Under the pieces are notes generated by a model, which saw only the letters and a program-made list of their open reading frames with translations, did not search any database and had not been told where the DNA came from. A DNA stretch of 64,000 nucleotides from Symbiobacterium thermophilum IAM 14863 (GTDB taxonomy: Bacteria > Bacillota > Sulfobacillia > Symbiobacteriales > Symbiobacteriaceae): NCBI RefSeq assembly GCF_000009905.1, contig NC_006177.1:1302001-1366000 (forward strand). The letters run 5' to 3'. Every line of letters starts with the position of its first letter. Within the stretch, counting starts at the first letter, position 1. Below, piece after piece: positions 1,118 to 13,780 of this stretch. The position numbers and the translations under genes are program-made.

Positions 1118-3031
1118 CTATCGGCTCAGCAGGGAGCCGACGTAGCGCAGCAGCTCGTGGGCGCAGGACGGGCAGTAGCCGTGCTCCTGCACCAGCCGCT
1201 CTGCCACCTCGTCCATGCGCCGCTGCTGTTCGGCGTCGGGCGCGTGCAGGGACGTGGTGATCTTGACGACGTCCTTCAGGTCCGCGAAGAGCTTCTTCTC
1301 GATGGCCTCCCGGAGCCGCTCGTGGGAGGTGTAGTCAAAGGTCATCCCCCGGCGGGCGTAGGTGGACAGCCGGATCATGATCTCCTCCCGAAAGGCCTTC
1401 TTCGCGTTCTCCGAGACGCCGATCTGCTCCTCGATCGACCGCATCAGCCGCTCGTCGGGCTCCCGCAGCTCGTCGGTCAGCGGGTCCCGGATCTTCCGGC
1501 CGCCGCAGAACGCCTCCACGTTGTCCAGGTAGTTGGCGAGGAGGGTGCGGGCGGAGTCCTCGTAGGCGTGGATGAAGGCCTTCTGGACCTCCCGCCGGGC
1601 GATGTCGTCGTACTCCTGCCGGGCCAGGGCGATGAGGGAGAGCAGCCGTTCCCGCTCCTCCGGGGTGATGGAGGGGTGCTGGTCCAGACCGTCCTTCAGG
1701 GAGCGCAGAATGTCCAGCGCGTTGATGCACGCCTTGTCGCTGTTCTCGCCCTTGCGGATGATCGCGGAGGAGATGCGGTTGATCACGTAGCGGGGGTCCA
1801 CCCCGCTCATCCCCTCGACGCCTTCGAATTCGCGCTGCAGTTCGGCCACGTCCTCCGGCGTGTACCCCTCCACGTGGGCGCCGTCGTAGAGCTTCAGCTT
1901 CTTCATCAGGTCCATGCCCGCCCGCTGCGACTCCTTCAGGCGGCTCAGCACGGAGAAGACGGCGGCCGTGTACAGCGCGTGGGGGGCGATGTGGACGTGG
2001 CCCGTGTCGGCCTGTCGGATCAGCTTCTCGTAGATGCGCACCTCGTCGGAGACCCGCAGGTTGTATGGGATGGGGATGACGATGATGCGGCTCTGCAGGG
2101 CCTCGTTTTTCTTGTTGGCGATGAACGCCCGGTACTCGGTCTCGTTGGTGTGGGCGACCACCAGCTCGTCTGCGGAGATGAGGGCGAAGCGGCCGGCCTT
2201 GAAGTTGCCCTCCTGGCTGAGGCTGAGCAGATGCCAGAGGAACTTCTCGTCGAGCTTCAGCATCTCCTGAAACTCCATGATGCCGCGGTTGGCCTTGTTC
2301 AGCTCGCCGTCGAAACGGTAGGCGCGGGGGTCAGACTCGGAGCCGTACTCGCCGATGGTGGAGAAGTCGATGGAGCCCGTGAGGTCGGCGATGTCCTGCG
2401 ACTTGGGGTCGGAGGGGCTGAAGGTGCCGATGCCCACACGGTCCGCCTCCGAGAGGAACACCCGCACCACGGGCACCTCCTCGATCCGGCCGCCGTACTC
2501 CTCCCGCACCATCAGCCGGCAGCGGGGGCAGAGGTCGCCCTCGATGACCACGCCCAGCTCCTTCTCCAGCATCGGCCGCAGCTCGCGGGGTACCAGGTGC
2601 AGCGGTTCCTCGTGCATCGGGCAACCGCGGATCGCGTAGACGGCTCCCTCCGGCGTGCGGCTGTACTCCTCCAGCCCCCGCTTCAGCAGGGCGACCAGGG
2701 TGGACTTCCCGCCGCTGACCGGACCCATGAGAAGGAGGATCCGCTTGCGCACGTCCAGGCGGCGGGCTGCGGGGTGCAGGTACTCCTCCACCAGCCGCTC
2801 CAGGGCGCGGTCGAGGCCGAAGAGCTCCTGCTCGAAGAAGCGGTAGCGCCGCACGCCGTTGACTTCCTCCACCCCGCGGGAGACGATCATGTTGTAGATG
2901 CGGGCGTGCGCATGCTGGGCCACGCGCGGGTTCCTGGCCACGATCTCCAGGTAGTCGGCGAACGTCCCCTCCCAGCGCAGGGACTCCTCCCGGTTCCGGT
3001 ATGCCTCCAGCTGCTGCAGCAGCGTGTTCAT
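1118..3031 (-). CDS. prkA: PrkA serine protein kinase / AAA-type protein
   Basis: About 637 residues, the normal PrkA length. A P-loop GPVSGGKST lies near residues 103-111, within a PrkA AAA domain, and the C-terminal half has the kinase-related PrkA region. A pair of cysteine segments (GCPMHEE and CPRCR, about residues 138-172) could bind metal. The start is set at ATG 3031, with AGGAGG 10 bases upstream; a GTG at 3037 is also in frame but too close to the Shine-Dalgarno site. In Bacillus PrkA is a sporulation-associated kinase/protease-like protein. Here it leads the prkA-yhbH operon and is preceded by a promoter-like element also found before spoIIR. Confidence 0.93.
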   Translation of the reverse strand: MNTLLQQLEAYRNREESLRWEGTFADYLEIVARNPRVAQHAHARIYNMIVSRGVEEVNGVRRYRFFEQELFGLDRALERLVEEYLHPAARRLDVRKRILLLMGPVSGGKSTLVALLKRGLEEYSRTPEGAVYAIRGCPMHEEPLHLVPRELRPMLEKELGVVIEGDLCPRCRLMVREEYGGRIEEVPVVRVFLSEADRVGIGTFSPSDPKSQDIADLTGSIDFSTIGEYGSESDPRAYRFDGELNKANRGIMEFQEMLKLDEKFLWHLLSLSQEGNFKAGRFALISADELVVAHTNETEYRAFIANKKNEALQSRIIVIPIPYNLRVSDEVRIYEKLIRQADTGHVHIAPHALYTAAVFSVLSRLKESQRAGMDLMKKLKLYDGAHVEGYTPEDVAELQREFEGVEGMSGVDPRYVINRISSAIIRKGENSDKACINALDILRSLKDGLDQHPSITPEERERLLSLIALARQEYDDIARREVQKAFIHAYEDSARTLLANYLDNVEAFCGGRKIRDPLTDELREPDERLMRSIEEQIGVSENAKKAFREEIMIRLSTYARRGMTFDYTSHERLREAIEKKLFADLKDVVKITTSLHAPDAEQQRRMDEVAERLVQEHGYCPSCAHELLRYVGSLLSR

Positions 3032-3053
3032 CCGCACTCCACCTCCTGGCTAT

Positions 3054-3084
3054 GAGTTATACCCAGCGCCGCAATCGTCGAAAC
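3054..3084 (-). promoter_or_regulatory. Putative sporulation-type promoter of prkA
   Basis: On the minus strand GTTTC (3084-3080) is followed after 15 bases by GGGTATAACTC (3064-3054), ending 23 bases before the prkA start. The 13-base core CTGGGTATAACTC recurs exactly upstream of spoIIR (58595-58607), there with GTTTA 15 bases upstream. The spacing resembles forespore sigma promoters, but the -10 differs from the Bacillus SigF consensus at several positions, so the sigma factor is uncertain. Confidence 0.5.
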
Positions 3085-3112
3085 ATACCGCGGAATGCCG
3101 CGAATGTGACCA

Positions 3113-3140
3113 GTACGTGAACATTTTAGTTGTCACGTAC
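3113..3140. promoter_or_regulatory. Inverted repeat, candidate MarR operator
   Basis: GTACGTGA (3113-3120) and its exact reverse complement TCACGTAC (3133-3140) are separated by 12 bases. The repeat overlaps the putative ECF promoter of the following MarR gene, a position suited to autoregulation. No matching palindrome is seen before the second MarR gene. Confidence 0.4.
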
Positions 3141-3142
3141 GT
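3117..3142 (+). promoter_or_regulatory. ECF-sigma-like promoter of the first MarR gene
   Basis: GTGAACATTT at 3117-3126 is followed by TACGT at 3138-3142. The same two blocks with identical spacing occur at 5408-5433 before the second MarR gene. GAAC followed by 17 bases and CGT fits the general -35/-10 layout of ECF promoters, and an ECF-type sigma gene lies between the two. Confidence 0.5.
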
Positions 3143-3184
3143 ATTGGGGGGTAGAGAGGTACGGGGACGGACCCCGAGGGAGAG

Positions 3185-3643
3185 GTGGTTGCATTGGCAG
3201 CGAGCGCTCTGCCGCTGGATCCCCTGGCATACGTGCAGACGGCGTCGGTGGTCTCCCACATCCTGCAGACCCGGTGCGACGGTTACCTGAAGCGCACCCA
3301 CGGCCTGAGCTGGCCGGGGTTCACGGTGCTCAGGACGCTGAAGCAGTGCGGGCCGACGTCGGCCAAGCGGCTGACGGCTGCCCTGGCCTGCACCCACAGC
3401 AACATCACCGGCATCGTCGACCGGCTGGAGCGGGACGGATGGGTGAGGCGGACCCGGTCGACCGAGGACCGCCGGGTGATCTACCTCGAGCTCACGGAGA
3501 AGGGCGAGCGGATCGACGAGGTGGAGGAGGGGCTGCATCGGTTCCTGACCCTGTCGCTGGGGCACTGGTTCGGCGAGGCCCACCCGCTGTTCGAGCGGCT
3601 CCAGGCCCTGGAGGCGCGGATGGGCGACGGGCAGGAGGCATGA
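3185..3643 (+). CDS. MarR-family transcriptional regulator (first paralogue)
   Basis: A 152-residue winged-helix regulator. The N-terminal helix is followed by the HTH region (LSWPGFTVLRTLKQCG...ACTHSNITGIVDRLERDGWV) and the beta-wing RRTRSTEDRRVIYLELTEKG, with the DRR signature of the family. GTG 3185 is the annotated start; TTG 3194 is an alternative. It is clearly paralogous to the MarR protein at 5457-5957: both share LSWP.F.VLR and IDRLERDGW. MarR proteins are usually ligand-responsive repressors; no ligand can be inferred. Its position beside surface-protein genes and an ECF-type sigma gene suggests a local regulatory circuit. Confidence 0.88.
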   Translation: MVALAASALPLDPLAYVQTASVVSHILQTRCDGYLKRTHGLSWPGFTVLRTLKQCGPTSAKRLTAALACTHSNITGIVDRLERDGWVRRTRSTEDRRVIYLELTEKGERIDEVEEGLHRFLTLSLGHWFGEAHPLFERLQALEARMGDGQEA

Positions 3644-3644
3644 G

Positions 3645-3690
3645 GATGCCCGGGCAGTGCGCGGAGGCAGCACAACGCCCGGGCATCTTC
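3645..3690 (+). terminator. Stem-loop after the first MarR gene
   Basis: GATGCCCGGGC (3645-3655) pairs perfectly with GCCCGGGCATC (3677-3687) across a 21-base loop, then TTCC. The T-run is weak, so termination is likely but not certain. Confidence 0.55.
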
Positions 3691-3822
3691 CGCGTCACCC
3701 CCCGGCGCCGGTGCGCGCCCGCGGGCGTGTGTGATTTCGCCGGCAGCGAAAATCACCCGCACGGGCGATGCCTATCTCCTTCATAATGAGACCGTCCAGG
3801 CATATTCCATCATTCGGGGGGA

Positions 3823-4500
3823 ATGGGACTTCGGTTCGTCTGGTCAAGCCTCCTGTCCGTGATCCTGACCGGCGGGCTGCTCGGCGCCACGACCCTCGCC
3901 CTGTTCACGGACCAGGCGGAGAGCAGCGGGCAGTTCACCGCCTGCACGCTTCCGCTGCGCTGCTCCACCGTGGTCAACACGGAGAGCGCCCTGTTCGGCG
4001 GCTCAGCGCCGGCGAGGATCACGAAAGCCGGCCCGACGGAACACGTGTTGCAGCCGGGTGAGCAGCACGACATCACCATCACGGTCGAACTGCCGAAGGA
4101 AGCCGGCAACGCGTACCAGAACGCCCAGGGCACGTTGACCATCACGTTCTTCGCACCCCAGAGGACGAACATGGAGTGGGTTCCCCTCGGGCCCAAGTTG
4201 AAGGCGGACAACGTTGCTGTCCCCGCGACCGGTCGGGTGTATGACCTGTGCCAGGTGGAACTGACCGGAGGAGAAGTCGTCAACCTGGACAAGGCGAGGG
4301 GGATCTGGATCCAGGTGTGGGATCCGACCCCGAAGTGGAACTGGGCGCCCATCATCGGGGACGATCACAACCTGTGGTCTGACAACGATCTGCCCAGCGG
4401 CGGCTACAACGTCTATATCTTCATGGAGGATGGTACGGTCTACCGGACCCTCACCATTCCCCATACGAGAAACCAGACGAACGAGCGGCGAACCTCCTGA
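3823..4500 (+). CDS. Exported TasA/camelysin-like surface protein
   Basis: A 225-residue protein with an N-terminal hydrophobic segment (FVWSSLLSVILTGGLLG) ending in ATTLALFTD. This is the SipW-processed motif seen in TasA, camelysin and related matrix proteins, and it recurs in four other proteins between 7 and 11.5 kb. The middle part (EHVLQPGEQHDITITVELPKEAGNAYQNAQ) resembles the beta-rich core of those paralogues, which also carry a .AGD.Y(Q/E).. stretch. The C-terminal 90 residues (IWIQVWDPTPKWNWAP...) have no recognisable family and make it longer than typical camelysin. It probably needs the signal peptidase at 8615-9205, although it stands alone 4.8 kb upstream. Confidence 0.72.
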   Translation: MGLRFVWSSLLSVILTGGLLGATTLALFTDQAESSGQFTACTLPLRCSTVVNTESALFGGSAPARITKAGPTEHVLQPGEQHDITITVELPKEAGNAYQNAQGTLTITFFAPQRTNMEWVPLGPKLKADNVAVPATGRVYDLCQVELTGGEVVNLDKARGIWIQVWDPTPKWNWAPIIGDDHNLWSDNDLPSGGYNVYIFMEDGTVYRTLTIPHTRNQTNERRTS

Positions 4501-4580
4501 CCGGAGGTCCGCCGCTTCCCTCGTCGGGCGACGGGCCGTGTTTCATGGGTGCGAAGCGCAGGGCCCGCGGGTGTTTGCTT

Positions 4581-5135
4581 TCATGAGAGGTAACCCTGGT
4601 CGACCCCTACACTGGCCAACTCACGGGAGAGGTACTGCAGGCCGTTGCGCAGCCGGCTCTTCACCGTTCCCAGCGGCAGGTTCAGCTCCTCGGCGATGTC
4701 GCGGTACGAATAGCCGGCCAGGAGCCGCAGGCTGAGCACGGAGTTGTAGTGCTGCGGCAGCCGGTGCAGGGCTTCGCGCAGGGCCTCGACGAAGGCCTTG
4801 CGCTCCAGCTCCGACTCCGGCCCCGGGGTCGGATCCAGCAGGTCCTCGGTCAGCAGGGCGGTGGTCTGGTGCCGCTGGCTGCGCAACACGTCGAGGGCGG
4901 CGTTGCGCGTCACCTTGTACAGCCACGCCCGCAGTTGGCTGGTGGGCTCCAGCGATTCCATGTGGCACCAGGCCTTGTACATGGCGTCCTGGCAGACCTC
5001 CTCGGCAGCGAAGGGGTCGCCCAGGAGGCGGTTGGCGTAGGAAAGGAGGGACCCGCCCATGACCTCCATAAGCCGTCCCAGCTGCTCGTCGTCGCTGAGC
5101 GCGGGCTGTGCCCACATCTCGACGCCTTCGCGCAT
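4581..5135 (-). CDS. ECF-type RNA polymerase sigma factor
   Basis: A 184-residue sigma-70 family protein with only regions 2 and 4, which is ECF size. Region 2 contains LLGDPFAAEEVCQDAMYKAW and LRAWLYKVTRNAALDVLRSQ; region 4 contains LPQHYNSVLSLRLLAGYSYRDIAEELNLPLGTVKSRLRNG. ATG 5135 is preceded by a purine-rich GAAGGG. No anti-sigma gene lies beside it, so its control is unclear. It lies between two MarR paralogues whose promoters share an ECF-like -35/-10 pair, which are good candidate targets. The next gene downstream on the other strand, at 3823-4500, converges with it. Confidence 0.9.
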   Translation of the reverse strand: MREGVEMWAQPALSDDEQLGRLMEVMGGSLLSYANRLLGDPFAAEEVCQDAMYKAWCHMESLEPTSQLRAWLYKVTRNAALDVLRSQRHQTTALLTEDLLDPTPGPESELERKAFVEALREALHRLPQHYNSVLSLRLLAGYSYRDIAEELNLPLGTVKSRLRNGLQYLSRELASVGVDQGYLS

Positions 5136-5456
5136 GACCCTTCAACCCCTCTCTATGTACAGACAGCAAACAGACCATAGTAGAACAATATGGACTAGCG
5201 AATGTTTCGGACCAGAGGGCGCCCCCTGCGCCGTAATCATAGCACCATTATGTAAGAACAAACAAGGGTGATTGTTCAGTCGTTTACTCACAATCTATCC
5301 ACGGGTCCCCCAGCAGGGGGGTGATGGCGGTCATTTTCGCATGAGGATATGCCGGACCTGATCATACTCGCAATCCAAGGGAAAATATGCACTTTCAATT
5401 GCTGTCTGTGAACATTTAACGGTGGCGATACGTTATGACAGGTAGAGAAACGGGAG
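5136..5456. other. AT-richer divergent control region between sigma and second MarR genes
   Basis: This 321-base gap has no gene. It is visibly richer in A+T than its surroundings. It holds an 11-base inverted repeat, ACAGACAGCAA at 5159-5169 and TTGCTGTCTGT at 5399-5409, one arm near each divergent start. A second repeat is GATTGT (5270-5275) with ACAATC (5290-5295). The ECF-like promoter for the MarR gene overlaps the right arm of the first repeat by two bases. Confidence 0.6.
5408..5433 (+). promoter_or_regulatory. ECF-sigma-like promoter of the second MarR gene
   Basis: GTGAACATTT (5408-5417) and TACGT (5429-5433) reproduce exactly the two blocks and the spacing found at 3117-3142. The -10 block lies 24 bases before the MarR start at 5457. 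Confidence 0.5.
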
Positions 5457-5957
5457 ATGGGGGTGGGTGTCCTGAGCCGGACCGACGTTGCGGCGGTGGA
5501 GCGCATCGCCATGGTGAGGCGGATGGCCAGCAGGCTCGAGCAGCAGTGCGAACGGTACCTGCGCTCGGCCTACGGCCTCAGCTGGCCCCAGTTCCAGGTG
5601 CTCCGGGAGCTGTCGGTGGAGCGCCCGACCATGCTGCAGCGGGTGAACGACGCCGTCTACTGCACCCGCGGCAACCTGGCGGCCATCATCGACCGGCTGG
5701 AGCGGGACGGGTGGCTGGAGCGCTTCCGCCTGCAGGGGGATCGCAGGGTTGTGATGCTGAGCCTCACGGAGAAAGGGGCCCAGGTCACCGCGATCGAGGC
5801 GGAGCTGCGCGCCCGCATCCGGGAGTGGCTGGAACCGGTGTGGCGGGAGGCCCAGGAGATTCAGGAGTACCTGGGCGTTCTGCTCCGGGACATGACCGAT
5901 CCGCTGGCCGCGGAAGAGGCGCTGAAGCCGAAGGAGCGGCTGGTCGCGGCCAGCTGA
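5457..5957 (+). CDS. MarR-family transcriptional regulator (second paralogue)
   Basis: A 166-residue winged-helix protein paralogous to the regulator at 3185-3643. It has LSWPQFQVLRELSVERPTML, then the recognition region NDAVYCTRGNLAAIIDRLERDGW and the wing with GDRRVVMLSLTEKG. The C-terminus (EALKPKERLVAAS) is longer than in its paralogue. ATG 5457 follows GGGAG closely; GTG 5463 or 5466 could also serve. The first gene downstream is convergent and the two are separated by a strong bidirectional hairpin. Ligand and targets are unknown. The shared promoter motif suggests that both MarR genes are under the same sigma factor. Confidence 0.88.
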   Translation: MGVGVLSRTDVAAVERIAMVRRMASRLEQQCERYLRSAYGLSWPQFQVLRELSVERPTMLQRVNDAVYCTRGNLAAIIDRLERDGWLERFRLQGDRRVVMLSLTEKGAQVTAIEAELRARIREWLEPVWREAQEIQEYLGVLLRDMTDPLAAEEALKPKERLVAAS

Positions 5958-5976
5958 CCGGGCGCTGCACAGGCGA

Positions 5977-6011
5977 GAAACGGGCCAGGGCACGGAGCCC
6001 TGGCCCGTTTC
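5977..6011. terminator. Strong hairpin between convergent genes
   Basis: GAAACGGGCCAGGGC (5977-5991) pairs perfectly over 15 bases with 5997-6011 across a 5-base loop. It ends in TTTC on the plus strand and the mirror image on the minus strand. It probably terminates both the MarR gene and the LuxR-type gene. Confidence 0.85.
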
Positions 6012-6026
6012 GCGTCGAGCGGTCTA

Positions 6027-6716
6027 CTAATCAATGTAATCGACGTGTCTGAGGCGTTGAACGGCGAGTTGCACGACGGAAGGGGCCGTCCCCGCCCCCT
6101 CGGCGATGGCTGCGGCGCCCACTGCGGCCCTCATCATCAGCCGTTTCCGCTGGGCCCACCGCTGCACCTTGCGGACCAGCCGGTCGGCCACCTCGACGGC
6201 CGCGGTCCGGTCGCTCCCGGGCAGAAGCAGCAGGTAGAGGTCATCCCGCCAGGGCAGGAGATGGTCACGGCTGCGGATGGACGTGGCCAGCAGGTCGGTG
6301 AGGATGGTGCCGGGCACCCTCGTCGCCAGGCCGGACTGGAAGAACTCCAGGTGGAGGAGGACCACGGTGGCGTTCATGCCCTCAGCCTGGTCCTGATGCA
6401 GGTCGGCGAAAATCCGCTGGAACTCGGCCGGCAGGTCCTCTGCCACCGTTCCGATCCGCGCGGGCGCGCTGGCGGCCTCCATCAGCGCCCGGTACAGCTC
6501 CACCCGGCTGCGCGTTCTGGTCTTGCGGTAGAGGTTGCGCAGGTGCGTCTTGACCGTGTTCTCGGAGATAAAGAGCGCGGCCGCAATCTCCTGGGTGGAG
6601 CGCCCGGAAACCAGCAGACGGCCGACCTCCAGTTCCCGCTGGCTGAGGTGCGCGCCCCAGATCCGCTCCAGGGAGTAGACGGCCACAGATGTCTTCTCGG
6701 CCTCCTGGATGCCCAT
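6027..6716 (-). CDS. LuxR-type HTH protein with C-terminal degenerate GGDEF-like domain
   Basis: A 229-residue protein. Residues 22-80 form a LuxR HTH (LSQRELEVGRLLVSGRSTQEIAAALFISENTVKTHLRNLYRKT). The C-terminal 110 residues read like a diguanylate cyclase fold that has lost catalysis: IRSRDHLLPWRDDLYLLLLPGSD takes the place of the usual R.GGDEF..LLPG.., followed by AVEVADRLVRKVQ and MRAAVGAAAI, and an SVVQLAVQRL end in place of the usual LL..AD.AL. The GGDEF residues are replaced by WRDDLY. The HTH is N-terminal, the reverse of most LuxR receivers. It may sense a nucleotide or partner protein and act on the divergent surface-protein cluster starting at 7056; that is inference. Confidence 0.75.
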   Translation of the reverse strand: MGIQEAEKTSVAVYSLERIWGAHLSQRELEVGRLLVSGRSTQEIAAALFISENTVKTHLRNLYRKTRTRSRVELYRALMEAASAPARIGTVAEDLPAEFQRIFADLHQDQAEGMNATVVLLHLEFFQSGLATRVPGTILTDLLATSIRSRDHLLPWRDDLYLLLLPGSDRTAAVEVADRLVRKVQRWAQRKRLMMRAAVGAAAIAEGAGTAPSVVQLAVQRLRHVDYID

Positions 6717-7055
6717 AATTCTGCACGCTCCTTTGCAGCATGAACAGTACTCCTCAAATTCGCCGAAAAGTCATGGCCTCCTGCTCACCCGGCGCGGGTG
6801 ATGTCCGAAAAGATCGAATTCATCCTCCCAGGTGATCTAACATAAAATATCATGCTTACGAAGTATTCCCCTGGCCGCCGGCGCGTGCGCGTGCCGGCGG
6901 CCTCATGCGCGTAGGACCGCGGCTCTCGCACCATCACTCCCTTAAATGTTCACTTGCCAAGACTGATATGAAGAATCATCCGCGAATTCATGCCCACAGG
7001 TGAGGCGGCCCTGTGCCATAATCGGCGCGACGGGAGGTGATGCCCGCTGCGACGC
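6717..7055. other. Divergent intergenic region before the surface-protein cluster
   Basis: This 339-base gap contains no gene. It holds a perfect 10-bp hairpin, GGCCGCCGGC (6873-6882) with 6893-6902, not followed by a T-run on either strand. TTAAATGTTCAC at 6942-6953 is the reverse complement of the MarR -35 motif but lacks the matching -10. A possible extended -10, TGCCATAAT, at 7014-7022 lies 34 bases before the next start. Confidence 0.5.
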
Positions 7056-8618
7056 ATGACGCGCAAGCGCCGGCTGCGGCAGAAGGCGATGCGGGCCCTG
7101 GGTCGCCAGATCCGGGAGTCCGGCAGCAGGTTGCCCCTGGTGCTGATCCCGGTGACGATGGTGATCTCCAGTCTGGCGGCCGGGCACGTGACCGGGGCGA
7201 CCTTCGCTCTCAACCAGGACGTCGGGCAGGCGCAGAGCATCCAGTTCCAGGCCCTGACCACATCGCAGGTGCTCCGTTTCACCTCGGGCCGGGTCCAGCT
7301 GGTGGAAGATGGCGGGCCGGACCAGGTGGGCTCGGAGGTCGTGCGGGTCTTCCGGATCATGAACATCAGCGACCGGCGCGTGGACCTCTCGGTGGAGCTG
7401 ACCGGCATCCCATGGGCACGGGCAGCACTCTCCCGCAGCGTGCTGGGCCCGGGCGAGACGGCCGAGATCGTGGTCAGCGGCACGCCGGATCAGCCGGGCC
7501 AGTACCAGGGTTACCTGACCGTGTACGGAATGGGCGGCTTCCTGGAGCTGGGCATGGAGTTCACCGTCGTGATCGTCCCGGCGCCGGATCCCTGCCGGCC
7601 CGCCGAATGGCCGGCGCCCGGAGCACGGGGCGGGGAGGCGTCGGGGGATCCGGTCCGGGAGCCTGACCCCGAGGAGACGGAGGAGTCCGAGGCCGTCATC
7701 GGCCTGCATCCCGACCTGCTGGGCCTGCCCGCCGAGGACGCGCCGGAGCCGGCCGCTGCGGAGCCCGACGGTGAACCGGAGGCTCCTGAGGCTGCCGACG
7801 AGGCCGGTCATGAGCCCGGGGAAGGGGCCGGGGAACCGGCGGCCCCCGGTGACGACGGGTCGGCATCCGAGTCAGGCGACGAGGCCGTTCCTTCCGGGGA
7901 CGGCGTGGATGGTGGCGCCGCCGCGCCCCCTGACACGACAGATCCGTGTGCTGACGCTCCCGGCGGCCAGCTGCCCGATCCGGCTCCGGACTGCGGGGTT
8001 CCCGCCGAGGCCGTCGTGGAGGAGGAGGAAGGCGAGCAGGCTGCGGAGCCCGATGACTGCGCCCCCGCTGCAGCTCCTCCCGGCGATGAGGCGGCCGAAC
8101 CCGGCGATGGCGACCAGGACGGCCGCAAGGAAGAGGACGAAGATGCGGCCGGGGAGCCGGTGGAGGACGACGCTGAGGGGACCGGCGATCCGCACGACGA
8201 CGAACTCACCGAGGGTGACACCGCCGGTGAGCCGGAGGACGACGCCGACGACAGTGGGTCTGGCGCTGAGCAGCCCGGCGACGCGGTCGGCGGGACCGAC
8301 GAGGCCGCCGACGACGGGATCGCAGGCGGGGACGGAGATGCCGGTTCCGGTGAGACCGACAGCGACGAGCCCGACAGCGACGGACCCGAAGACGGCGCAC
8401 CCGATGACGGTGACCCGGGCGTTAGCGATGATGCGGACGGCCCAGGCGCCGAGGACGCTGATGCTGACACCGGCGACGCCGACGGCGGCTCGCCTGGCGG
8501 CGAACAGGCCCACGGTGATTCTGCCGGCGATGACGGAGCGGATCCCGACGACACCGGGCAGCCGCTGACCGGGTCGGACGCGGCGGACGACGCCGACGCA
8601 GGGGGGCAGACGACGTGA
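7056..8618 (+). CDS. TasA-like exported protein with very long acidic tail
   Basis: A 520-residue protein. After a basic start, residues 26-47 form a signal/membrane segment ending in VTGATFALNQD, a close variant of the SipW motif GATFALFTD. Residues 50-173 look like a compact beta domain (VFRIMNISDRRVDLSVELTG...LGPGETAEIVVSGTP). From about residue 175 to the end the protein is almost only D, E, G, A, P and T, probably disordered and strongly negative, perhaps calcium-binding. ATG 7056 has its GGGAGGTGA site 15 bases away. A CTG at 7047 is in frame and better spaced, so the true start may be non-standard. Its stop overlaps the signal peptidase start by 4 bases. Confidence 0.7.
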   Translation: MTRKRRLRQKAMRALGRQIRESGSRLPLVLIPVTMVISSLAAGHVTGATFALNQDVGQAQSIQFQALTTSQVLRFTSGRVQLVEDGGPDQVGSEVVRVFRIMNISDRRVDLSVELTGIPWARAALSRSVLGPGETAEIVVSGTPDQPGQYQGYLTVYGMGGFLELGMEFTVVIVPAPDPCRPAEWPAPGARGGEASGDPVREPDPEETEESEAVIGLHPDLLGLPAEDAPEPAAAEPDGEPEAPEAADEAGHEPGEGAGEPAAPGDDGSASESGDEAVPSGDGVDGGAAAPPDTTDPCADAPGGQLPDPAPDCGVPAEAVVEEEEGEQAAEPDDCAPAAAPPGDEAAEPGDGDQDGRKEEDEDAAGEPVEDDAEGTGDPHDDELTEGDTAGEPEDDADDSGSGAEQPGDAVGGTDEAADDGIAGGDGDAGSGETDSDEPDSDGPEDGAPDDGDPGVSDDADGPGAEDADADTGDADGGSPGGEQAHGDSAGDDGADPDDTGQPLTGSDAADDADAGGQTT

Positions 8619-9205
8619 AGATCCTGCTGCGCATCCTCAGTGGAGCCGTGACAGCGGTACTGGCCATCGCCCTGGCGGGGACGGTGCTGTTGGCCCTCGC
8701 CGGGCGCAGGGCGCCCGACCGGATCCCGACGGTTTTCGACTACAAGGTGCTCACCGTGCTGAGCGGCTCCATGGAGCCGGCGATCAGGACCGGTGACGCA
8801 ATCATCGTGGAGCCGCTGAGGCCGGAGCACGAGATCCGGGAAGGCGACGTCATCACCTTCCGGGCGGCAGACGCCCCCGACATGCTGATCACCCACCGGG
8901 TCATCGGCATCGTGTCGGTCAACGGCGAGCCGGCGGCCTACGTGACCAAGGGCGACGCCAACGAGGCGCCTGACCTGGTCCCGGTTCAGCGGTCCCAGAT
9001 CGTCGGCATCCACCGGTGGCGGATTCCGTACTACGGCTACCTCTCGGACTTCATGCACACCAGGGAGGGGATCATCTCCCTCGTGATCGTCCCGGGCGTG
9101 CTGCTGATTGCCCTGGAGGTCCGCAAGATCTTCCAGGTGATCGCCGAGGAGGAGAAGGCCAGGCAGGCCGACGAGAAACCCGCCGACGCCCAGTCCCCCA
9201 GTTAG
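8615..9205 (+). CDS. sipW: SipW-type (ER-like) signal peptidase I
   Basis: A 196-residue membrane protease with N- and C-terminal membrane segments. Catalytic Ser52 lies in SGSMEP, and His94 in THRVIG replaces the lysine of ordinary bacterial signal peptidases. This defines the ER/archaeal/SipW class. GDAIIV and KGDANE boxes are also present. It starts at GTG 8615, overlapping the preceding stop, so it is translationally coupled to the acidic TasA-like gene. In Bacillus SipW processes TasA and TapA for biofilm fibres; here it presumably processes the five exported proteins carrying the ALFTD-type motif. A cytoplasmic charged tail (EEEKARQADEK) ends the protein. Confidence 0.92.
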   Translation: MKILLRILSGAVTAVLAIALAGTVLLALAGRRAPDRIPTVFDYKVLTVLSGSMEPAIRTGDAIIVEPLRPEHEIREGDVITFRAADAPDMLITHRVIGIVSVNGEPAAYVTKGDANEAPDLVPVQRSQIVGIHRWRIPYYGYLSDFMHTREGIISLVIVPGVLLIALEVRKIFQVIAEEEKARQADEKPADAQSPS

Positions 9206-9306
9206 TCACCTGCAGCCGGTCTGCAGTGCGAGTGTTGCCGGGCCTGCGCCCAGGCAGCGAATCCAGATTCCAGATCCAACACCATTTCTTTGGAGGGTGA
9301 GACCGA

Positions 9307-9825
9307 ATGAAGAGGATCCTGTTGAGCCTCGCAACCGTGGGTGCCCTGTCTGCTCTGGTTACCGGCGCCACCTTCGCCCTGTTCACCGCCAGCACCGAGA
9401 ACACGAACAACACCTTCACGGCCGGTACCGTCCGGTTCGGCAAGGACTTCAACGCCAGCTGTGATCTGAGCGCCGACAACATCGCGCCCGGCGACTCCGG
9501 CTCCTGCAGCTACACGATCACCTACGTGGGCAGCCTCGAAGCGTTCGTCGGCGTTGAGCACAGCGTCTCCGGCGACCTGTTCTCCGGCGACAACCCGATG
9601 ACCTACACCGTCAACGGCAAGAGCGACAGCGGCACCATCCTGCTGGGCAAGGCCAGCAACGGCGATACCGTGACCGCCGACGTCCAGTGGTCCTTCCCGC
9701 TCGCGGCGGGCGACGAGTACGAGGGCAAGAGCGGCACCATCAGCCTGACGTTCAAGGCGGTCCAGGTCCGCAACAACGAGGACGCCTCCGGGAACCCCAT
9801 CTCCTGGAATGAGGACGGGACCTAG
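9307..9825 (+). CDS. TasA/camelysin-like matrix protein (short form)
   Basis: A 172-residue protein of normal camelysin size. The signal segment LLSLATVGALSALV is followed by TGATFALFTASTENTNNTFTAGTV, the standard SipW-substrate N-terminus. The rest is a beta-rich domain with a pair of cysteines (NASCDLS...GSCSYTITYVG), ending PLAAGDEYEGKSGTISLTFKAVQVRNNE, a segment repeated in its neighbours. Start ATG 9307 follows GGAGGGTGA. It lies 101 bases after the signal peptidase and is the most typical family member here, so it is the best candidate for the main fibre subunit. Confidence 0.83.
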   Translation: MKRILLSLATVGALSALVTGATFALFTASTENTNNTFTAGTVRFGKDFNASCDLSADNIAPGDSGSCSYTITYVGSLEAFVGVEHSVSGDLFSGDNPMTYTVNGKSDSGTILLGKASNGDTVTADVQWSFPLAAGDEYEGKSGTISLTFKAVQVRNNEDASGNPISWNEDGT

Positions 9826-9870
9826 TCGAACCCGCGCCGTGAGCTGACACCGGAACACCAAGATGACGGA

Positions 9871-9904
9871 ACGCCCGCCGGGATCCACCGGTCCCGGCGG
9901 GCGT
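9871..9904 (+). terminator. Perfect 13-bp hairpin between two TasA-like genes
   Basis: ACGCCCGCCGGGA (9871-9883) pairs with 9892-9904 across an 8-base loop. No T-run follows (GGATTA), so it may attenuate transcription or stabilise mRNA, reducing expression of downstream genes relative to the gene at 9307. Confidence 0.55.
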
Positions 9905-9922
9905 GGATTAGGAGGTAACCCC

Positions 9923-10558
9923 ATGAGCAAGAAGACTCTGATGGTGCTGGGGTCAGCCGTGGCGATCTCCGCGCTTTCCATCGGCGGGACCCTGGCCCTG
10001 TTCACGGACGCGACGGACGCTTCCAAGGACTTCGTCGCCGGGACGCTCTGCCTCCGGTCCGACCGGAACGACGGCGACCCGGTCCCCGGCCCGATGTTCT
10101 ACATCACGCCGGAACAGGGCAAGACCCCGTCCGGCCAGCTCGGGATCAACGCCACCGGTCCCTGGGCCCCCGGCGACTCCCACACGCGGACCCTCACGGT
10201 CTATAACTCGCCTGACTGCAGCAGCATGGACGCCTGGCTCGTCAGCGTTGAGGCACGGCTGACGGAGGGCATCGAGGACCAGTACGAGCCGATGGCCGAG
10301 AAGTTGCACGTGAAGGTCAAGACGCCGAAGCGCGGCGGGCCTGACGAGGTGGTGGCCGAGGCGCCGCTCAGCGACTTCCTGGCGGGTCCCGTCTCCATCG
10401 CTTATCCTGACGGGACCAAGATTCCGCTTCACCTCACGAGCAACCGGCACATGAAGTTCGAGGTTACCTTTGACAAGGCCGCCGGAAACGACTACCAGGA
10501 CAAGACCCTGGTGGTGGACTTCATCGTGCACGCCGAGCAGATGAAGAACAACCCGTAA
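9923..10558 (+). CDS. TasA/camelysin-like exported protein
   Basis: A 211-residue protein starting at ATG 9923, with a very strong GGAGGT site 7 bases upstream; an upstream in-frame codon at 9863 is not used because it lies before a hairpin. The signal segment VLGSAVAISALSIG ends in GTLALFTDATDASKDFVAGTLC. It shares PGPMFYI, GPWAPGDSHTRTL and AAGNDYQDK...VDFIVHAEQMKNN with the protein at 10845-11471 (there RGPMFYI, GLWAPGDAHHRGF and HAEQLRNN at the end), so these two are close paralogues. It is probably exported and SipW-processed, and assembled outside the cell. Confidence 0.8.
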   Translation: MSKKTLMVLGSAVAISALSIGGTLALFTDATDASKDFVAGTLCLRSDRNDGDPVPGPMFYITPEQGKTPSGQLGINATGPWAPGDSHTRTLTVYNSPDCSSMDAWLVSVEARLTEGIEDQYEPMAEKLHVKVKTPKRGGPDEVVAEAPLSDFLAGPVSIAYPDGTKIPLHLTSNRHMKFEVTFDKAAGNDYQDKTLVVDFIVHAEQMKNNP

Positions 10559-10844
10559 TCCCAAAGCGGCCGAGCGACCCCTGGGAGCGCCTTCCCCTGG
10601 GGCACGGGGCGGAGAAACCGTTGCGGGAAGACGTGCCAGCGAGACCGCCGCGGCGGTCGGTTTCCGGCACGGCACCAGACGGTGGGATGGGTGGGCTGCG
10701 GAAGTGTGCGCAGGCTGCTGCACTGGAAAGGGTTCCCGTCCCCTTGTAGCCGAGGGCACACGTACTCGGGTGCGGAGGGATTCGCCCGGGGCGAAAACGG
10801 CGCCCCCGGGCTGATCCGAGCAGGACAAAGGAGGGGAAGATCCG
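10559..10844 (+). other. Long structured leader between two TasA-like genes
   Basis: 286 bases without a gene. A 16-bp perfect palindrome GACCGCCGCGGCGGTC (10643-10658) lies inside longer pairing arms, GTGCC (10633-10637) with GGCAC (10666-10670). A second stem, GCCCGGGG (10784-10791) with CCCCGGGC (10804-10811), lies close before the next start codon. This could be a folded leader or attenuator; it does not fit a riboswitch class I can name. Confidence 0.45.
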
Positions 10845-11471
10845 GTGATTCGCACATGGGTGATGGCGGCCGCACTTGTCCTGGTCACGGCGCTTGCCGG
10901 CGTGGGCGTCACCTTTGCCCTCTTCACCGACAGCCGGGAGGGCGGCAGCCATGAACTGGTGGCCGGCACGGTGAGAATCGATGGTGAACGGGTGAACGAC
11001 ACGGTCCGGGGGCCCATGTTCTACATCGACGGCGCGTCGGACGGTGTGACCCACGACGGGCAGGAAGGGCTGCTTCCGACCGGCCTCTGGGCCCCGGGTG
11101 ACGCGCACCACCGCGGCTTCCAGATCGAGAACGTCGGCACCCTGGATGTGAAGCTGACGGGCATGACGGCGGAGCTTAAAGCGGGCGACGAGGTCCTCGC
11201 CGGCGCGCTGGACGTGAAGATCTACGACGACCTGTACCTGGACGAGGACGGCCACGTGCTTAACCCCGAGGCAACCCTGATCTACTCGGGCAAGCTGGCC
11301 GAGTTCCTCGGCAGCGGCATGTCGTTCCCCACGCCCATCGAGCTGGCTCCGGGCGACCTGGCGTCGATCGGAATCCTGGTCTCCTTCCCGCTGGATGCGG
11401 GTGACGCGTACCAGGGCACGACGATCAAGGTTACCTTCAGCGCCCACGCCGAGCAGCTCCGGAACAACTAA
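10845..11471 (+). CDS. TasA/camelysin-like exported protein
   Basis: A 208-residue protein from GTG 10845, preceded by GGAGGGG. The hydrophobic N-terminus (VMAAALVLVTALAGVG) ends in VTFALFTDSREGGSHELVAGTV. It is closely related to the protein at 9923-10558 through RGPMFYIDG, GLWAPGDAHHRGF and the same HAEQLRNN ending. The C-terminal part LSF-type strands (ILVSFPLDAGDAYQGTTIKVTFSAHAEQ) is the conserved family core. It is 21 bases upstream of the large secreted protein at 11493, so the two are probably expressed together. Confidence 0.8.
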   Translation: MIRTWVMAAALVLVTALAGVGVTFALFTDSREGGSHELVAGTVRIDGERVNDTVRGPMFYIDGASDGVTHDGQEGLLPTGLWAPGDAHHRGFQIENVGTLDVKLTGMTAELKAGDEVLAGALDVKIYDDLYLDEDGHVLNPEATLIYSGKLAEFLGSGMSFPTPIELAPGDLASIGILVSFPLDAGDAYQGTTIKVTFSAHAEQLRNN

Positions 11472-13444: not shown

Positions 13445-13525
13445 GAGACTTGGTCGGCGCGTATCGAACCTTTTGCCCACCGCGTGCGTGTATAGGGTAA
13501 AAGCCCAGGAAAGGTGGCGTCAGAG

Positions 13526-13780
13526 ATGAGCGGGCGCATGGTGAGCAGGGCGCGTGAAAGATCAGACGTCCCGATGTCTCTCGCGGTCTGGCTGCGGTAC
13601 CAAGTCGAATCCATTCCCCACGTTGCCGCGAGGGACGGCCAGTTCTCGGCCCGCTGTGCGGCGGCCTCCCTCCGTGTGAAGCTCGGTGGGGCACTGCGGG
13701 CTAACCTGATCGACCCCGCCACGGCTGCAGAGTTGAATGCGATGTTGGACCAGGTCGGGCGGATCGAGGAGCCGGCCTGA
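13526..13780 (+). CDS. Small protein of unknown function
   Basis: An 84-residue ORF from ATG 13526, with GGAAAGG 11 bases upstream; a GTG at 13514 overlaps that site. It has its own possible promoter (TATAGG near 13491-13496) and a strong terminator right after it, so it looks like a genuine one-gene unit. The protein is helical and basic to neutral, for example RYQVESIPHVAARDGQFSARCAAASLRVKLGGALRANLIDPATAAELNAMLDQV, with no signal or membrane segment and one cysteine. I do not recognise a family. Confidence 0.5.
   Translation: MSGRMVSRARERSDVPMSLAVWLRYQVESIPHVAARDGQFSARCAAASLRVKLGGALRANLIDPATAAELNAMLDQVGRIEEPA

Follow-up and report, generated by a model that had tools for sequence, protein, structure and literature searches.

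Predicted ECF-type promoters before two MarR genes that flank an ECF sigma factor gene in Symbiobacterium thermophilum

Promoters of the sigma-W and sigma-M type carry CGT or CGTA in the -10 box at a spacer near 16–17 bases, like the promoters described here. The hallmark of ECF promoters is AAC at -35 and CGT at -10, with which the layout before the two MarR genes of our locus agrees, and the -35 box of the MarR promoters resembles the sigma-W -35 box, ATTGAAACCTTT (PMC8103513). The likeness to the sigma-W and sigma-M regulons of Bacillus subtilis lies in a two-domain sigma factor and in a -35 AAC followed by TTT, as in the sigma-W box (PMC8103513). Unlike in those systems, the ECF sigma factor encoded here (sigma-1) has neither a recognisable anti-sigma neighbour nor an autoregulatory ECF promoter, and its nearest putative targets are the MarR genes, which lie beside a SipW/TasA-like cluster. 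The NCBIfam SigM and SigW models match sigma-1 far below their cut-offs.

A cognate anti-sigma gene next door is usual for ECF sigma factors, not universal, and where promoters have been predicted for ECFs, about 55% show positive autoregulation (PMC8103513). A review of ECF groups (PMC8999054) describes transcriptionally regulated ECFs that lack an anti-sigma factor, namely HrpL (ECF32), SigE/SigQ (ECF39) and the TetR-linked ECF203, as well as the PadR-linked ECF265. Sigma-1 resembles these groups in having no recognisable anti-sigma neighbour, conserved regulators adjoining its gene and a strongly conserved upstream region, with a putative sigma-A-like promoter, at which control is likely to be exerted. 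It differs in that its linked regulators are two MarR proteins whose own genes bear predicted ECF-type promoters. No MarR-linked ECF group was found in the passages of the review consulted or in the literature searched. The neighbouring cluster is like the tapA-sipW-tasA matrix operon of Bacillus in encoding a SipW-type peptidase together with TasA/camelysin-like proteins that depend on SipW, but gene order and regulators differ, and a predicted ECF-type promoter lies only before the 3' neighbour of the cluster, an 84-aa gene, and not before the cluster genes themselves. The predicted regulon described here is new and of a kind already known.

Gene content and conservation of the locus

We analysed a window of 64,000 bases (1302001–1366000 of the single-contig, 3,566,135-base genome, G000) together with two sister genomes of the same genus (G001 and G002) and five more of the order, eight genomes in total. 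Sigma-1 is the ECF gene of the window, and sigma-2 is its paralogue at G000:1167253–1167744. Within the reach of their contigs, G001 and G002 have the same gene order, prkA, MarR1, sigma-1 (opposite strand), MarR2, luxR-type gene (opposite strand) and SipW/TasA-like genes. Between MarR1 and sigma-1, G002 has an equivalent of the SipW-type gene and G001 has none. Window positions 3823–11471 hold a non-Bacillus cluster of matrix- or surface-like type, with a SipW-type peptidase and several SipW-dependent proteins; a 520-aa protein encoded within it at 7056–8618 is very acidic and rich in Asp and Glu. An Rfam search of window positions 2900–7200 gave no match.

Table 1 Features of the locus and of related sites (window positions unless a genome or locus is named).
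Feature	Position	Strand	Evidence or detail
Predicted ECF-type promoter of MarR1, TGAAC-ATTT ... TACGT-ATTG	3118–3146	+	-35 GAAC 3119–3122, -10 CGT 3140–3142
Inverted repeat GTACGTGA-N12-TCACGTAC spanning MarR1 promoter	3113–3140	.	8-bp arms
MarR1, 152 aa as listed	3185–3643	+	PF01047 E 4.6e-16, above cut-off
SipW-dependent signal peptide protein (camelysin/TasA-like)	3823–4500	+	TIGR04088 E 8e-9
Sigma-1, ECF-type, 184 aa, no C-terminal extension	4581–5135	-	Pfam regions 2 and 4, NCBIfam
Most conserved intergenic block of locus, upstream of sigma-1	about 5225–5307	-	alignment
Putative sigma-A-like promoter of sigma-1	5237–5265	-	TTGTTT 5265–5260, 17 bases, TATGAT 5242–5237, TG extension; by eye
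Inverted repeat AAACAAGGGTGATTGTTC overlapping sigma-1 -35 box	5260–5277	.	perfect GAACAA-N6-TTGTTC in G002
Predicted ECF-type promoter of MarR2, TGAAC-ATTT ... TACGT-TATG	5409–5437	+	motif and conservation
MarR2, 166 aa	5457–5957	+	PF01047 E 2.8e-11, above cut-off
LuxR/GerE-type regulator, conserved neighbour	6027–6716	-	domain match and synteny
SipW-type signal peptidase	8615–9205	+	NF046067 E 8e-43 (below cut-off); TIGR02228 above cut-off
Three SipW-dependent/TasA-like surface proteins	9307–9825, 9863–10558, 10845–11471	+	profile matches; third scores slightly below model cut-off
Third predicted ECF-type promoter, CGAACCTTTTGCCCACCGCGTGCGTGT then GGGTAAAA	13465–13491	+	core 13466–13489; conserved in G001 (C106:4859) and G002 (C3:74638)
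84-aa orphan protein behind third promoter	13526–13780	+	85% and 70% identical in sister genomes
ECF-like promoters near rny/ymdB/spoVS	L142 about 3721–3749 and about 4490–4515; G000:1922220, 1922989	-	conserved

Sigma-1 is composed of regions 2 (PF04542, residues 29–88) and 4 (PF08281, residues 117–167) only, connected by a short linker, as in ECF (group 4) sigma factors, and it matches the sigma70-ECF model TIGR02937 above its cut-off (E 3.8e-30). The first-pass annotation had called it the only ECF-type sigma gene. It is ECF-type, lies between the MarR genes and is the only one seen in the window, but the genome as a whole contains 13 matches to sigma-1 at E ≤ 1e-10, sigma-1 included. Its orthologues are 90% and 81% identical in the sister genomes; in a search of the eight order genomes they were found in the genus only, and the three sequences form a clade of their own. 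Sigma-2, the closest paralogue (45% identity), is present in all eight and follows a DUF72-like gene, in surroundings that are for the most part retained throughout the order. The two sigma factors form one clade (support 96/91) and have GTVKSRL in region 4.2 in common. Two candidate elements before sigma-2 were dropped: GAACAG-N6-CTGTTC falls inside the end of the upstream gene, and an ECF-like site in G004 is absent from the other genomes.

Domain and profile matches reveal no anti-sigma domain among the neighbours of sigma-1 (a SipW-type secreted protein and MarR in G000, MarR only in G001), in agreement with the first-pass annotation. Upstream of sigma-1, no GAAC..CGT site is present on the minus strand in any of the three species. 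Therefore, two usual ECF features are missing from sigma-1, which is a non-canonical ECF by its lack of an adjacent anti-sigma gene, and still an ECF.

Both flanking genes belong to the MarR family, as had been proposed, and their products are about 42% identical. In a tree they are sister paralogues, with a pair support of 88/85 only, and the MarR1 and MarR2 clades each hold just the three members of the genus; a third, family-wide MarR (G000:2882999) is found beyond it. The true start of MarR1 is probably TTG 3194 by alignment, as this codon aligns with ATG in both sister species. The distance from the motif to MarR1 thus becomes about 51 bases, and the upper end of the 24–43 bases given previously for the two genes has to be corrected.

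Predicted promoters of the MarR genes and their class

The motif GTGAACATTT-N11-TACGT, reported previously as two copies of identical spacing, lies exactly where it had been placed, at 3117–3142 (GTGAACATTTTAGTTGTCACGTACGT) and 5408–5433 (GTGAACATTTAACGGTGGCGATACGT). By pattern search these are the only two exact matches in the whole genome, the reversed control has none, and the pattern does not occur in 100 dinucleotide shuffles of the window. Allowing three mismatches adds one unrelated match in the window. The first half, GTGAACATTT, taken by itself has four occurrences genome-wide, of which the window contains three. The third window copy, at 6944–6953 on the minus strand between the luxR-type and 520-aa genes, was dropped, being without a second box and not kept in G001 or G002; the fourth genomic copy (3128903) lies within a likely coding gene.

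When the three species are aligned, each of them shows both motif copies in recognisable form and at unchanged spacing. Before MarR1 the boxes read TGAACATTT, TGAACCTTT and TGAACATTT, followed by TACGTAT, TACGTAT and TACGTTA; before MarR2 the first box is TGAACATTT in all three, followed by TACGTTA, TACGTTA and TTCGTTA. The ECF layout of AAC and CGT is thereby conserved at both genes. The copies are local identity peaks, with 70–75% identical columns in 20-base windows versus 20–35% on parts of the flanks. The first-pass annotation had named random frequency and lack of conservation as grounds for abandoning its reading; the motif is rare in the genome and conserved in the sister genomes. A plus-strand consensus scan (9-of-12 rule) around the two MarR genes finds no site of sigma-70 type. 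The best 26-base ungapped identity of the whole intergenic regions, compared with shuffles, is non-discriminating, and the top MarR1–MarR2 window lies elsewhere. Block synteny, together with the motif copies as conserved islands at equal spacing in the sister genomes, indicates that the blocks before MarR1 and MarR2 are almost certainly ECF-type promoters, as judged from their AAC and CGT boxes.

The MarR1 promoter is also spanned by an inverted repeat, of which 7 of 8 pairs are kept in G001 and which is poorly kept in G002 and absent at MarR2. It is possibly an operator, but a weak candidate.

We searched the three genomes for GAAC-N-TTT-N13-CGT-WW with one mismatch, as well as with a variable spacer, and inspected the genes behind the matches. 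The core GAAC-N-TTT-N13-CGT occurs without mismatch three times in the window, each time before a gene, and at all three sites (Table 1) the bipartite boxes are conserved at fixed spacing. Two further class members are conserved in three species. One precedes the 84-aa gene at the far (3') end of the SipW/TasA-like cluster, about 8 kb from sigma-1; the product has no Pfam match and could possibly be an anti-sigma factor or adaptor. The other precedes a gene for a TPR protein (G000:3166122, G001:C31:5121, G002:C2:138900), 1.86 Mb from the locus. These two promoters run counter to the earlier description of the circuit as self-contained, and the promoter class represents a predicted regulon of at least four genes (MarR1, MarR2, 84-aa and TPR). 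Most class members have a GGTRRA-like stretch about 7 bases past CGT, near the expected transcription start.

A sequence-only model was built from twelve sites and applied to the first 150 candidates of each genome. In each genome the model retrieves all of its own sites well above the other candidates scored, which is partly by construction. Among the candidates scored, the MarR1 promoter is the top class member in the genome (model R1, E 3.1e-7), being itself in the model.

ECF-like sites of other kinds were observed as well. Near rny, ymdB and spoVS, about 770 bp separate a pair of conserved ECF-like promoters, CGAACTTTTGTG..CGTATTGATTGGTGAGCGCAC and CGAACTTTTCTC..CGTCA, of a different sub-class; the sub-class CGAACTTTTGTG..CGTATTGATTGGTGAGCGCAC precedes ymdB-spoVS in all three species. 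A second promoter class, GTAACCTTTT-N13-CGTTA/CGTTT, precedes an ECF gene followed by a 380-codon reading frame in two species (G000:2714491, G001:C207:27101; L158/L159) and a yycI-like gene in three (L160/L161/L164), these genes being named by eye. Since this class is distinct from that of the MarR promoters, at least two classes of ECF-type promoter seem to be in use in the genus.

Alternative readings of the conserved boxes

The boxes TGAAC(A/C)TTT and TACGT(A/T), with a GAAC-to-CGT spacer of 17 bases, would act as -35 and -10 elements of ECF type, and such promoters would drive MarR1, MarR2, the 84-aa orphan gene and the TPR-protein gene. Sigma-1 would be the likeliest reader of the MarR promoters. 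Adjacency, common distribution and the nearness of three of the four class members favour it, and on comparative grounds we lean towards sigma-1 as the factor that reads them. The promoters may instead be read by another ECF sigma factor, most plausibly sigma-2, or by several overlapping ones, with the adjacency of sigma-1 being incidental. The 13 ECF-type matches in the genome and the common clade and region 4.2 motif of sigma-1 and sigma-2 are consistent with such a reader, as is the presence of a sub-class CGAACTTTT..CGTATTG before ymdB-spoVS in three species. Moreover, GAAC-TTT-CGTAT sites exceed the control in G003 (23 versus 7) and G004 (11 versus 5), both of which have sigma-2 and lack sigma-1, indicating that the box pair alone does not name sigma-1. 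However, four members of the class were found in the genome and three of these are no more than 9 kb away from sigma-1, the sigma-1 gene was found together with both MarR genes, in the genus only, and the neighbourhood of sigma-2 is unrelated. A different or shared reader is rather unlikely in our judgement, though it deserves serious consideration.

That the block is the operator of a regulator, with a coincidental ECF look, is improbable. Autoregulation by the MarR proteins would be an example of such a function: members of this family commonly bind close to the promoters of their own genes, and the MarR1 copy does lie inside an 8-bp inverted repeat; the GTGAACATTT copy at 6944–6953, which has no second box, would also fit. 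However, the conserved element is bipartite and non-palindromic, the inverted repeat is missing at MarR2 and decayed in G002, and the lone copy is unconserved. In addition, the unrelated 84-aa and TPR genes have both boxes at the same spacing. The presence of the element before these non-paralogous genes also makes it highly improbable that the blocks are a functionless leftover of the MarR1/MarR2 duplication. As sister paralogues, the two genes could have upstream DNA of shared descent, but the duplication is older than the three species (both copies are present in each, at about 42% identity) and the boxes stand out from the remaining upstream DNA.

Control of the sigma-1 gene and a possible feedback loop

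The block upstream of sigma-1 is 80–90% identical over about 80 bp and is single-copy, with no second copy in any of the three genomes. Being the most conserved upstream DNA of the locus, it points to transcriptional control, and we think that the sigma-1 gene is controlled in this way. A sigma-A-like promoter would drive the sigma-1 gene, and a conserved inverted repeat overlaps the -35 box of this promoter; the 9-of-12 consensus scan does not pick the promoter. The inverted repeat looks like an operator, and its position over the -35 box suggests that a DNA-binding regulator probably determines how much sigma-1 is made.

A near-copy of this inverted repeat, AAACAAGTTTGTTTGTTC, is conserved in two species (G000:1565963, L147 3464–3481; G001:C81:133, L148 133–150), where it precedes two genes, one small and membrane-protein-like, the other PAS/chemoreceptor-like. 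It may be a second target of the regulator that would act at the sigma-1 promoter.

MarR proteins characteristically bind an inverted repeat of 16–20 bp at a promoter, and MarR1 and MarR2 are natural candidates for the one at sigma-1 because they are encoded beside it. The repeat is absent from the MarR promoters and from upstream of the third MarR gene, and no palindrome common to the promoters of sigma-1 and the third MarR gene was found. With the repeat found at neither place, the MarR–operator step is not independently backed, and control of the sigma-1 gene by the MarR proteins is a tentative proposal. A MarR product bound at the sigma-1 promoter would close a negative feedback loop. The complete circuit would be a genus-specific one without an anti-sigma factor, in which sigma-1 drives four genes, those for the two MarR regulators, the 84-aa protein and the TPR protein, and in which a MarR product, or the pair of them, shuts off the sigma-1 gene by covering its -35 box. 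The MarR pair would then replace the anti-sigma factor and supply the signal input. Taken as a whole, it is speculative and we would not expect every part to hold.

The locus adjoins a SipW/TasA-like surface cluster, and the regulation of such clusters outside Bacillus is little known. The predicted regulon is a small, well-bounded ECF regulon in a little-studied high-G+C Firmicute lineage, and the prediction can be tested with a single mutant. If MarR control of sigma-1 proves true, the locus would provide a worked case of an ECF sigma factor under MarR-type repressors instead of an anti-sigma factor.
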